NCBI RefSeq assembly: GCF_001880325.1
Contig: NZ_CP016312.1
Span: forward strand, 992,001 to 1,056,000
Direction of reading: 5' to 3'
Source of the DNA: Thermus brockianus
GTDB lineage: Bacteria; Deinococcota; Deinococci; Deinococcales; Thermaceae
DNA length: 64,000 nt
The notes under the pieces were generated by a model. That model made no database searches. It worked only from the letters and a program-made list of their open reading frames with translations, and had not been told where the DNA came from. Numbering within the stretch: position 1 is the first letter of the stretch; each line of letters starts with the position of its first letter. This document shows, piece after piece, positions 24,493 to 28,702 of this stretch. The position numbers and the translations under genes were made by a program.

Positions 24493-25194
24493 GTGCTCCT
24501 CCTCCTGGGCCCCACGGACGTGGGCAAGACCACCTTGGCCCACAGGCTTTTGGAGAAGCTTGGGGAAGCCTACCTCCTGGACCTGGACCCGGGGCAAGGG
24601 GCCTTGCCCGGCACCTTCACCCTCTTCCGCTACCGGGAAGGCACCCTCACCCCGGTGCGCCGCTACCTCCTGGGGGCCACCTCCCCCGCTGGCCTCACGG
24701 CCCGGGCGGTGGTGGGGGCCTTGCGCTTAGCCCGCCTCATCCCCCGGGGAAGCCCTGCGGTGGCGGACACGGACGGCCTTTTGGACCCGGAGTTCCGCCT
24801 CCTCCAGGCGGAGGCCTTGCGCCCGGCGGAGATCCTCATCCTGGGCTCAGAGGCCCTCCACCAGGCCTTTGCCTGGCGCCGGGACCTCAAGGTGCGCCCA
24901 GTACCCCCCTTGCCCGAGGCGAGACGGAAAAGCCCAAGGGCGCGCCGGCAAAACCGCCTGGAGCGCCTCCTCGCCCACTTCCGGGAGGCGAGGCCCAGGG
25001 TCCTGCCCCTTTCCTTTCCCCCTGAGCCGGAAAGGCTTTACGGCCTCCTGGACCCCGAGGGGTTTTTCCTAGCCTACGGGCGGCTTTTGGCCCACACCCC
25101 GGGGGAGGGCCTCTTCCTCACCCCCACCCAGGGCGAGGTGGCCCAGGTGGTGCCCACCCGGCTAAGCCTTGCCCTTAGCGCACTACCAGGTTGA
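24493..25194 (+). CDS. Clp1/Grc3-like P-loop polynucleotide kinase
   Basis: 233 residues. Walker [20 protein letters not shown], then [20 protein letters not shown], which matches the G-x2-D-x-GK-[ST]-T and D-x-D-x-GQ-x5-G motifs of the Clp1 P-loop family. [17 protein letters not shown] and [20 protein letters not shown] follow. Family members phosphorylate 5'-hydroxyl ends of RNA or DNA. Bacterial forms are short and lack the eukaryotic N- and C-terminal domains, as here. The GTG start at 24493 is the first good one. It converges with leuS, overlapping by 20 bp. Cellular role unknown. Confidence 0.82.
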
Positions 25195-27808
25195 GGATCT
25201 TCCCCGGCACGTAGATCTCCTTCATCACCTCCTTGCCCTTCAGGTGCGCCTGGACGTTGGGCACCTTCTTGGCCTCCGCCAGGGCCACCTCCAAGGGGGC
25301 ATCCTTGGAAATCCTGATGGTGCCCCGCACCCTTCCGTTCACCTGTACCGCCACCTCCACCACGTCCCGCTCCAGGGCGCTTTCGTCCAGCTCGGGCCAG
25401 CCCGCCTCAAAGAGGCTATCGGGCCAGAAGCGGTGCCAAAGCTCCTCGGCGATGTGGGGGGCGAAGGGAAAGAGCATCTGCAGGTAGTAGCGGATGGCGG
25501 TGCGGTAGACGGGGGTCACGGGGCGCTTGCGGCGGTACTCGTAGAGGGCGTTCAAGAGCTCCATGAGGGCGGCGATGGCGGTGTTGAAGCGGAGGGCCTC
25601 GAGGTCCTGCGTCACCTTCTTAAGGGTTTCGTGGAGCTTCCCGTAAAGCGCCTTGTCCTCCCCCTCCAAAGCCTCCGCCTGGAACTGGCCCGAGATGGCC
25701 AAAAGGGCCTCCTGGTCCTCCACCACCCGCCGCCACACCCGGTTCAGGAAGCGCCAGGCCCCCTGCACCCCCTCCTCGGTCCAGACCATCTCGTTCTCGG
25801 GGGGGGCGGCGAAGAGGATGGTGATGCGGGCGATGTCCGCCCCCTCCTCCTTGACAAAGGGCCCCACCATGACCCCGTTGCCCTTGGACTTGCTCATTAC
25901 CGCCGGCTTCCAGAGGTGGAGGGTGCCGTCCTCGTGGGGCCTGAGCTCAGCCCCCATCTTCCTCACGTCCTCCAGGGAAAGCTCGTTTTCCCCAATCTCC
26001 AGCTGGATGCGGGTGGGCTCGGGGAGGCGCACCCGGTCCCCTTCCACCTCCACGGGCCCGAAGTCCGTCCAGGCCATGACCATGCCCTGGGTGAAGAGGC
26101 CCTGGAAAGGCTCCTCCACCCCCACCATGCCCAGGTCGTGGAGGAACTTGGTGAAGAAGCGGCTATAGAGGAGGTGCAAGACGGCGTGCTCCACCCCGCC
26201 GATGTACTGGTCCACCGGCATCCAGAAGTCCGCCTTCTCCCGGGCGAAGGGGAGGCGTTCGTTCTTGGGATCCGCGTAGCGGAGGTAGTACCAGGAGCTG
26301 TCAAAGAAGGTGTCCATGGTGTCGGTGTCCCGCTTGGCGGGGCCGCCGCACTGGGGACAGGTGGTCTCGTAGAACTCGGGGTGGGCCTCCAGGGGGCTTT
26401 TCCCCTTGGGGCGGATGTCCTCCACGTCCTTGAGGTCGGGGAGGAGGACGGGAAGCTCCTCCTCGGGCACCGGCACCACGCCGCAGGTGGGGCAGTGGAC
26501 CATGGGGATGGGGGTGCCCCAGTAGCGCTGGCGGCTGATGAGCCAGTCCCGCAGGCGGTAGGTGATGCGGGCCTTACCCAAGCCCTTTTCCTCCAGCCAG
26601 GCAATGACCTTCCGCTTGCCCTCCTCGCTTTCCGTGCCGTCAAAGGGGCCGGAGTTCACCATGATGCCCGGCTCCTCGTAGGCCCCCTCCAGGGGCTCGG
26701 GAAGGGGCTCGCCGGGGCGTTCAATCACCTTCTTGATGGGGAGGCCGTACTTCTTGGCGAACTCGTAGTCCCGGCTGTCGTGGGCGGGCACGGCCATGAT
26801 GGCCCCGGTGCCGTAGCCATAGAGCACGTAGTCGGCGGTCCAGATGGGGATCCGCTCCCCGGTGGCGGGGTTAAGGGCGTAGGCCCCCAGGAAAACCCCC
26901 GTCTTCTCCCGCCCTTCCGCCTGGCGCTCAATCTCCGTCTTGCGCTTGGCCGCCTCCACGTAGGCCAAGACCTCCTCCCGGCGCTCGGGGGCGGCAAGCT
27001 CCAGGGTCAAGGGGTGCTCGGGGGCCAGGACCATGAAGGTGGCCCCGAAGAGGGTGTCGGGGCGGGTGGTGAAGACGGTGATCCTCTCCTCGCGCCCCTC
27101 CACGGGGAAGTGGATCTCCGCCCCTTCCGAGCGGCCGATCCAGGCCCGTTGCATGGCCTTCACCTTCTCGGGCCAGTCCAGGCCCTCGAGGTCCCGAAGG
27201 AGCCGGTCGGCGTAGGCGGTGATGCGCAGGTACCACTGCTCCAGCTCCCGCTTTTCCACCAAAGTGTCCTCGTGCCGCCAGCAACGCCCCTCCACCACCT
27301 GTTCGTTGGCGAGGACCGTCTGGCACTTGGGGCACCAGTTCACAAGGCCCTTGGCCCGGTAGGCCAGGCCCTTCTCCCACATCTTGAGGAAGATCCACTG
27401 GTTCCAGCGGTAGTAGTCGGGCTCACAGGTGGTCACCTCCCGGTCCCAGTCGTAAAGGATGCCCATGAGCTCCAGGCTCTCCTTGGCCTGGCGGATGTTC
27501 TGGTAGGTCCAGTCCCGGGGGTGGACGCCGAACTTCAAGGCGGCGTTCTCCGCCGGCAGGCCGAAGGCGTCCCAGCCCATGGGGTGGAGGACCTCGTAGC
27601 CCTGCACCCGGCGGAAGCGGGCGAGGACGTCCCCCATGGTGTAGTTCTTCAGGTGGCCCATGTGCAGGTCCCCGGAGGGGTAGGGGAACATGACGAGGAC
27701 GTACTGCTTGCCCCGCTTCCCCGGGACCTCCTTGGCCTTCATGAAGCCCTTCTGCTTCCAAAAGCGTTGCCACTTGGGCTCTATGGCGTGGGGGTTGTAC
27801 TTTTCCAT
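25175..27808 (-). CDS. leuS: Leucyl-tRNA synthetase
   Basis: 877 residues, class Ia. The HIGH motif is in [20 protein letters not shown]. The CP1 editing domain is at about 220-420 ([40 protein letters not shown], with the conserved Asp of AHDSRD). The zinc-like CP/ZN region has [13 protein letters not shown] and CPQCGG. The KMSKS motif appears as [13 protein letters not shown], followed by the anticodon-binding helices and a C-terminal RNA-binding domain. Size equals the T. thermophilus enzyme. The start is fixed by GAGGCGAAG-ATG. A leader peptide and terminator lie directly upstream. Confidence 0.98.
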
Positions 27809-27820
27809 CTTCGCCTCCTC

Positions 27821-27894
27821 AAAAAAACCCCTCCCCCGAAGGGAAGGGACGGCCAGGCCCCTTCCCTTTAGGGGGCTAGCCTGGCCGGACGCAT
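27821..27894 (-). promoter_or_regulatory. Probable transcription attenuator of leuS
   Basis: On the minus strand, in order: GGCCAGGC (27886-27879), GGGAAGGG (27866-27859), GCCTGGCC (27858-27851), CCCTTCCC (27848-27841), loop TTCGG, GGGAGGGG (27835-27828), and seven T (27827-27821). The first and third segments pair perfectly over 8 bp. The second and fourth pair perfectly over 8 bp. The fourth and fifth make the terminator stem with one G-T pair. The alternatives overlap as in classical amino-acid attenuators. The leuS Shine-Dalgarno follows immediately. Confidence 0.65.
27868..27894 (-). CDS. Putative leuS leader peptide (8 residues)
   Basis: ATG-CGT-CCG-GCC-AGG-CTA-GCC-CCC-TAA encodes MRPARLAP. 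It is preceded by GGGGTAGGA. Its single leucine codon, the less common CTA, directly follows the 5' arm of the first hairpin, so a ribosome waiting for charged tRNA-Leu would cover that arm. An overlapping alternative [11 protein letters not shown], starts 8 nt earlier and has no leucine. Confidence 0.4.
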
Positions 27895-27934
27895 GAGTCC
27901 ATCCTACCCCTTTTTGCGTCCTGGGAGAAAGGCG

Positions 27935-28702
27935 CTAGTCCTCGAGGACCCGGGCCACCAAGGCCCCGAGGAGGAGGGAGAGGAGGACCAGGTAAAGCCC
28001 CAAAAGGGCCAGGACAAACCCCGCCAGGGGCCCGTAGAGGAGCTCGTACTGGGAGCGGGGAAGGAGCTTCGGCAATCCGAGCCGCACCCCCTCAAAGAGG
28101 AGGGCCGCCATCCCCGCCCCCACGCTTAAGGGAAGGAGGTCCCGTAGGCCCCGCACCCCGCGGAAAAAGGCGTAGGTGACAAGGAAGAGGAAAAAGGCGG
28201 AAAAGAGGGGCAGAAGGACCTCCAAGGGGCCCAGAAGGTCCCGCCAGACCGGGGGTAGGTAGCGGAGGACAAAGCCCAGGCCCAACCCCAAAAGGGAGAG
28301 GAGGATGAGGGCGAGGCCGAGGAGAAAGGGCATGAAAAGGCCTAAAAGCCGGTGACGCACCCCCGGGGGCCGGCCGAAGAGGAGGCCCAAGGCGTAGCTC
28401 AGGGCGGCGAAGAAGTTGCTCCCGGACCAAAGGAAAAGGAGGCCGCTTCCCAGGGTGAGGGGAAAGGCGCTTTGCGAAAGGAAGCGGAGGAGGTCCTGGG
28501 CGAGCTCGGGCCGGGCGGGGAAAAGGGACAAGGTGAGCCCCTCCAGGGCTTCCTGGAGCTCCTTTTGCCAAAGGGGGTTCCCCGCCAATACCAGGCCAAA
28601 AACCCCCACCAGGAGGAAAAGAAGGGGCATGAGGGAGAGAAGGGCGTAGTAGGCGAGGGCGGCGGCGAAGAAAGGAACGTGGGCCTCGGTGTAGAGGGCC
28701 AA
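27935..28702 (-). CDS. YihY/virulence factor BrkB family membrane protein
   Basis: About 255 residues, six transmembrane helices. Family motifs are HVPFFAAALAYYALLSLMPL near the N-terminus, SGSNFFAALSYALGLLFGRP, and GPLAGFVLALLGLYLVLLSL near the C-terminus. Formerly misnamed RNase BN; the real function is unknown. The start is uncertain. TTG at 28702 fits the family N-terminus and lies just after the small upstream ORF; the frame is open to 28801. It lies between proA and leuS, all leftward, so leuS may be partly read through from proBA. Confidence 0.83.
   Translation of the reverse strand: MALYTEAHVPFFAAALAYYALLSLMPLLFLLVGVFGLVLAGNPLWQKELQEALEGLTLSLFPARPELAQDLLRFLSQSAFPLTLGSGLLFLWSGSNFFAALSYALGLLFGRPPGVRHRLLGLFMPFLLGLALILLSLLGLGLGFVLRYLPPVWRDLLGPLEVLLPLFSAFFLFLVTYAFFRGVRGLRDLLPLSVGAGMAALLFEGVRLGLPKLLPRSQYELLYGPLAGFVLALLGLYLVLLSLLLGALVARVLED

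Follow-up and report, generated by a model that had tools for sequence, protein, structure and literature searches.

The enterobacterial leu leader controls biosynthesis genes and carries several Leu codons in a longer, Shine-Dalgarno-led leader, while the leader of E. coli pheST, also Shine-Dalgarno-led, contains Phe codons. In Thermus, attenuation is said to have been suggested long ago for the leuB region of T. thermophilus. Classical attenuators in front of leuS have been predicted in Streptomyces avermitilis and S. coelicolor (PMC1262725), and E. coli pheST, as cited in that paper (PMC1262725), is a synthetase attenuated through a leader peptide by its own amino acid. The Salmonella leu leader uses CUA for control; theory identifies this codon as the best choice in E. 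coli, and replacement of CUA by CUG reduced the sensitivity (PMC1183508). The attenuator RNA of Sinorhizobium meliloti trpL begins at the leader ATG (PMC7298713). A 2010 survey regarded leader-peptide systems as demonstrated in Proteobacteria and Actinobacteria only, until it added a case of its own from Firmicutes (PMC2965389).

The leader of leuS, the leucyl-tRNA synthetase gene, in Thermus brockianus is very probably a ribosome-mediated transcription attenuator answering leucine-tRNA scarcity, a mechanism inferred from comparative anatomy and folding. It shares with the Streptomyces attenuators the gene, a leader peptide with Leu codons, an antiterminator and a terminator, but those belong to another phylum and were reported for two genomes, whereas the Thermus-type design spans an order. 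Ribosome-mediated attenuation with rare CUA codons would link it to the enterobacterial leu leader (leuL; Rfam Leu_leader), from which it differs in having one CUA and fewer Leu codons, only 8 codons in a 74-nt attenuator, and a position before a synthetase gene. E. coli pheST is a further case of leader-peptide attenuation of a synthetase by its amino acid, but with Phe codons, a Shine-Dalgarno-led leader and a proteobacterial host. A leaderless leader ORF, as is probable for leuS, is found in S. meliloti trpL, although there it comprises 14 codons and serves trp biosynthesis in an alphaproteobacterium. T-box riboswitches (RF00230) also sense tRNA charging for synthetase genes, but by direct tRNA binding and without translation.

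A literature search retrieved no report of a leader-peptide attenuator for Thermus or its relatives, with limited coverage of subscription papers and a possible earlier mention in the Deinococcus deserti transcriptome paper. The leuS attenuator of this order is apparently undescribed, while the kind of mechanism is known in other bacteria; its compact, probably leaderless form and the parallel leaders at metG and thrS go beyond a routine addition to classical attenuation. If the reading is true, it would mean that classical attenuation reaches deep into a further phylum of bacteria, show attenuation running from leaderless mini-ORFs, provide independent backing for CUA as the best leucine-sensing codon, and offer a 74-nt system that works with the polymerase and ribosomes of Thermus, which rank among those with the best-known structures.

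Anatomy of the leuS upstream region

The window, i.e., the whole 64,000-nt stretch of T. brockianus DNA analysed here, carries leuS on its minus strand, and the match of its product to the Thermus leucyl-tRNA synthetase 1h3n spans all 877 residues. The upstream gene has its stop near 27935, and the attenuator occupies the gap between there and the leuS ATG at 27808. The complementary segments, the mini-ORF and the terminator listed in an earlier note on this DNA were all located on the minus strand, together with further elements:

27901..27906, minus strand: promoter -10 element TAGGAT, 6 nt ahead of the leader start codon; transcription predicted to begin at 27894, the first base of that codon
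27868..27894, minus strand: leader ORF MRPARLAP, 8 codons plus TAA, probably leaderless; position and length class alike in 27/27 genus genomes
27877..27879, minus strand: CTA, sole leucine (regulatory) codon of the leader, with two more codons before the stop; 78/78 leaders have it in frame, a count that is not fully blind
27851..27886, minus strand: anti-antiterminator (first) hairpin GGCCAGGC:GCCTGGCC; pairing kept in 98.9% of cells (22 genus sequences)
27841..27866, minus strand: antiterminator hairpin GGGAAGGG:CCCTTCCC; 97.7% of cells paired
27829..27848, minus strand: intrinsic terminator hairpin CCCUUCCC-uucg-GGGGAGGG (DNA CCCTTCCC-ttcg-GGGGAGGG); -13.5 kcal/mol in a windowed scan
27821..27827, minus strand: U7 tract (T7) of the terminator, read in the sequence
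27814..27820, minus strand: leuS Shine-Dalgarno GAGGAGG, abutting the U tract
25175..27808, minus strand: leuS, leucyl-tRNA synthetase, the regulated gene; ATG at 27808, 877 codons

The leader ORF reads ATG CGT CCG GCC AGG CTA GCC CCC TAA (27894-27868). The arms of the first hairpin lie at 27886-27879 (GGCCAGGC) and 27858-27851 (GCCTGGCC), and those of the antiterminator, which pair in 8 perfect bp, at 27866-27859 (GGGAAGGG) and 27848-27841 (CCCTTCCC).

The leader ORF is most likely leaderless, with its start site predicted at the leader ATG, because a -10 box (TATCAT, TATGAT, TAGGAT or TAAGAT) stands exactly 6 nt before the start codon in all 27 genus leaders, a Shine-Dalgarno-like 4-mer occurs in just six of them, and there is a precedent in Deinococcus. 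In that genus, TANNNT located 6-7 bp before ORFs acts experimentally as a -10 box for leaderless mRNAs, and the arrangement is common across Deinococcus-Thermus (PMC12340547). The leuS leader shows the same spacing that marks leaderless units in Deinococcota (TANNNT about 6-7 bp before the start codon), and in other families TANNNT precedes the leader start by 5-9 nt, mostly by 6 nt. The Shine-Dalgarno sequence previously assigned to the leader ORF did not hold, as this AGGA falls within the -10 box TAGGAT (27906-27901).

Conservation of the leader and its CTA codon

The upstream region was read in each of the 27 genus genomes in which leuS had been located. The layout of -10 box, 7-8-codon ORF, antiterminator arm and T-run terminator is present in 27/27, and the leader ORFs end in CTA-X-Pro-stop with a variable X. 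According to the earlier note, a conserved mini-ORF with a Leu codon and compensatory changes in all three helices, in an alignment across Thermus, would support the attenuator. Such a mini-ORF is indeed kept in 27/27 Thermus genomes and the helices are kept as well, but in the 22 distinct aligned genus sequences that underlie the pairing figures given above, changes are one-sided only, e.g., from G-C to G-U, and no double compensatory changes were found in the first hairpin and the antiterminator. Helices are rebuilt only between genera, as in the sister genus represented by L032, where GCCCGGC:GCCGGGC stands in place of GGCCAGGC:GCCTGGCC, and other families have different helix sequences.

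The most telling case is the diverged leader of L025/L030, GTG CGC GCG TCC CTA CGT CCC TAG (VRASLRP and stop), in which the GGCCAGG arm is lost and the CTA codon and the antiterminator/terminator are retained. It can be read as a natural experiment in which the codon was kept and the first hairpin was dispensable. The hairpin GGCCAGGC:GCCTGGCC, absent in L025/L030, is also not general outside the genus. Judged from this comparison, the conserved core is formed by the CTA codon, the antiterminator and the terminator, while the first hairpin, listed in the earlier note and present in T. brockianus, is an elaboration of most Thermus species and does not belong to the core.

With a covariance model of the genus leader, 25 genomes had a single strong match each (82-104 bits), located upstream of leuS; L025/L030-type leaders scored 36-37 bits, again at leuS. 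Among the secondary matches inspected (L325-L331) there was no second copy of the attenuator; they were judged by their appearance to be ordinary terminators or chance matches.

Of 111 genomes searched in the order, 99 yielded leuS, and most of these share the leader design. The genus and 74 upstream stretches from outside it make up 101 regions, which provided 78 leaders after the near-duplicates L040, L042 and L105 had been left out; 20 regions are without a leader, one of them ending at a contig end. The attenuator layout, rebuilt with different sequences, is present in five families. Leader peptides are unrelated between families (MQWFIHLELP, MIWAGLART, MTRTGLPPA, MIHSGLDNSGSRQA, MPVATNLLQLGGPRR, MKRNAYSQRLPGRAGH), with CTA in all of them, and the codon is kept where the surrounding sequence differs, among others in VRASLRP, MQWFIHLELP and MIHSGLDNSGSRQA, each followed directly by the stop. 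From this comparison, the leuS attenuator is very probably real and old.

An in-frame CTA is present in 78/78 leaders from the 101 leuS upstream regions, a figure that is not fully blind, as three non-genus leaders (L087, L090, L103) were picked by eye with CTA in mind. CTA accounts for 106 of the 143 Leu codons of the leaders, compared with 28 of 1,650 (1.7%) in the leuS genes of the genus and 4.1% in the genes of the window, and the CTA triplets in the leaders are distributed over the three frames as 106:4:4. A mini-ORF of 6-12 codons located 5-7 nt behind TANNNT occurs a single time on the two strands of the 64-kb window taken together, namely as the leuS leader. An ORF of this kind that also holds an in-frame CTA is present at 27/27 genus loci versus 0.2% of dinucleotide shuffles; outside the genus, where leaders were identified partly by their CTA, the values are 47 of 51 leader-holding loci versus 1.8%, and the genus figure is unaffected by this guidance. 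The frame-specific conservation of CTA points to translation.

This frame specificity also argues against direct binding of the leader by LeuRS, by another protein or, as in T-boxes, by uncharged tRNA. T-box-type leaders do occur in the order, e.g., before ileS (RF00230, 83.3 bits), but a scan of the leuS locus against Rfam matched no family, including T-box RF00230 and Leu_leader, and the transcript ahead of the terminator is only about 50 nt long, which is too short for a T-box. Direct binding is hence extremely unlikely.

Many of the leader-lacking regions have a -10 box near the leuS start codon, which suggests that they reflect loss of control, not an overlooked leader; leuS would apparently often be transcribed there from a promoter adjoining its own start. 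The lineages without a leuS leader are L034, L035, L036, L038, L052, L059, L075-L079, L081, L083, L084, L086, L088, L091, L093 and L096. Some members of one sister genus (L045, L050, L059) carry a tRNA-Leu gene immediately ahead of the leuS leader region; its anticodon, judged by eye, is apparently UAA. An extra -10-like box (around CAATACAAT) is found between the terminator and leuS in L048, L049, L051, L054, L060 and L063 of one sister genus, and its position suggests a second promoter that bypasses the attenuator.

Ribosome position and the choice between two folds

The leuS upstream region combines a leader ORF between promoter and gene, in-frame enriched regulatory codons, a terminator and a position-dependent antiterminator. 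For folding, the leading edge of the ribosome was assumed to lie 13 nt beyond the first base of the A-site codon. With a ribosome at CTA, GGGAAGGG is accessible and the antiterminator forms with -18.3 kcal/mol (37 °C), while a ribosome at the stop codon masks GGGAAGGG, so that the antiterminator is impossible and the terminator forms (37 °C). In the state with no ribosome, the first hairpin and the terminator fold. At 70 °C each of the three states has the same outcome as at 37 °C. The two mutually exclusive folds postulated in the earlier note were thereby recovered, the antiterminator with its 8 perfect bp and the outcome set by ribosome position.

The genus mean for the antiterminator is -17.3 kcal/mol in the stalled state versus -1.9 kcal/mol in the stop state; the corresponding values in other groups are -15.9 versus -3.5, -13.8 versus -1.9 and -19.5 versus -2.2 kcal/mol. 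Relative to shuffled upstream segments, the group means of the antiterminator z-score are -1.75 (genus), -1.02, -1.40 and -2.22; the T. brockianus locus reaches about -2.9 (p 0.01), and most genus members are better than their shuffles. The folding sets comprised 68 leaders (first scan) and 71 (looser scan), those without a detectable U-run terminator being excluded. In leaders with two CTA codons the best-fitting CTA served as the stall site, because use of the last CTA under-estimated the antiterminators. An intrinsic terminator precedes leuS in 27/27 genus leaders and in 68/78 leaders overall (first scan); a clear U-run terminator was not detected in ten leaders of other families in the first scan and in seven under the looser scan.

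The strong terminator by itself could also be a constitutive element between the upstream gene and leuS, with the mini-ORF and the alternative pairings being incidental, and it would indeed block read-through from upstream. The evidence for a leuS promoter upstream of the terminator, however, implies that leuS would then be silenced in Thermus, and the mini-ORF, the CTA and the antiterminator are conserved well above chance, which makes a purely constitutive terminator very unlikely.

In the attenuation mechanism, RNA polymerase would start at the A of the leader ATG, and a 70S ribosome would load at once on the leaderless transcript. By the position of the rare CUA, a ribosome that waits on it shields the RNA to just short of GGGAAGGG, and a ribosome at the stop shields GGGAAGGG itself. 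When the CUA-reading Leu-tRNA is scarce, the ribosome would wait, GGGAAGGG would take CCCUUCCC, no terminator would form and leuS would be transcribed. When Leu-tRNA is ample, the ribosome would proceed to the stop, CCCUUCCC and GGGGAGGG would pair and transcription would terminate at the U7 tract. On a leader without a ribosome, the first hairpin would form, followed by the CCCUUCCC:GGGGAGGG terminator and, again, a stop at U7. The enzyme that charges tRNA-Leu would in this way be produced on demand. The original proposal that leucine starvation favours leuS expression gains support from the CTA kept in all leaders, the stall-dependent antiterminator and the conserved architecture.

Leaders at other synthetase genes

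Leaders with cognate codons also precede metG, at 14 of the 20 loci for which the start was located (MKGMPRR, MTLGARMMEFPRGG, MIWRMMQVGPVPG, MTMRMSRCPSSP), and the metG leader is a probable methionine-tRNA-sensing attenuator, as judged from its sequence. In T. brockianus (L128/L276), metG is preceded by a leaderless mini-ORF, MKGMPRR and stop, with an internal Met codon, and then by an intrinsic terminator. Elsewhere, leaderless metG mini-ORFs with MM or spaced Met, again with an intrinsic terminator, were seen in L127, L129, L130, L265, L267, L268, L269, L270, L274, L278, L280, L282, L283, L284, L285 and L294. Several genera have thrS leaders (MRRPASTTTTWGRGGS, MFRLATTTRRREDF, MRSRPTTRPGENF); a leader of this type was not found before thrS in the T. 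brockianus genome. Short ORFs with two to four adjacent Thr codons, together with a terminator, were observed before thrS in L295, L296, L305, L306, L308, L309, L310 and L311, all from other genera. The encoded amino acid thus switches with the gene, which is hard to explain except by sensing of the tRNA for that amino acid.

These Met and Thr codons also bear on the idea that the mini-ORF stalls ribosomes via its nascent peptide, or passes them to leuS by reinitiation, without sensing Leu-tRNA. Arg-Leu and a near-terminal Pro recur in Thermus leaders, and leader genes located 10-11 bp before start codons have been reported as an aid to reinitiation, Deinococcus-Thermus showing such a peak as well (PMC4833913). 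The stop of the leuS leader, in contrast, is about 60 nt away from the leuS start, and the leader peptides are wholly different between families while CTA is constant. Together with the replacement of Leu by Met and Thr codons at metG and thrS, this leaves either variant with a very low probability.

On balance, though with considerable reserve, the order containing Thermus would possess a general class of compact leaderless leader-peptide attenuators for synthetases (CUA for leuS, AUG for metG, Thr pairs for thrS) beside the T-boxes of ileS, in which the outcome, antiterminator or terminator, would depend on ribosome occlusion alone, and the leuS version would derive from an ancestor of at least five families. 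Occlusion alone would be sufficient because the mini-ORF directly adjoins its promoter and the leader can do without the first hairpin. In the few genomes inspected, no convincing leuS-type leader was found before valS, ileS, serS, hisS, proS, tyrS, trpS, pheS or HMGL-family genes.

The ileS leader of the T. brockianus genome (L111, 1187-1420) is T-box-like, matching RF00230 with 83.3 bits (E 1e-18), which is below the gathering score of 93. The order seems to have both T-boxes and leader peptides. Further T-box-like leaders with GGTGGTACCGCGG-type motifs were recognised by eye before ileS (L112-L115), valS (L108) and glyS (L147).
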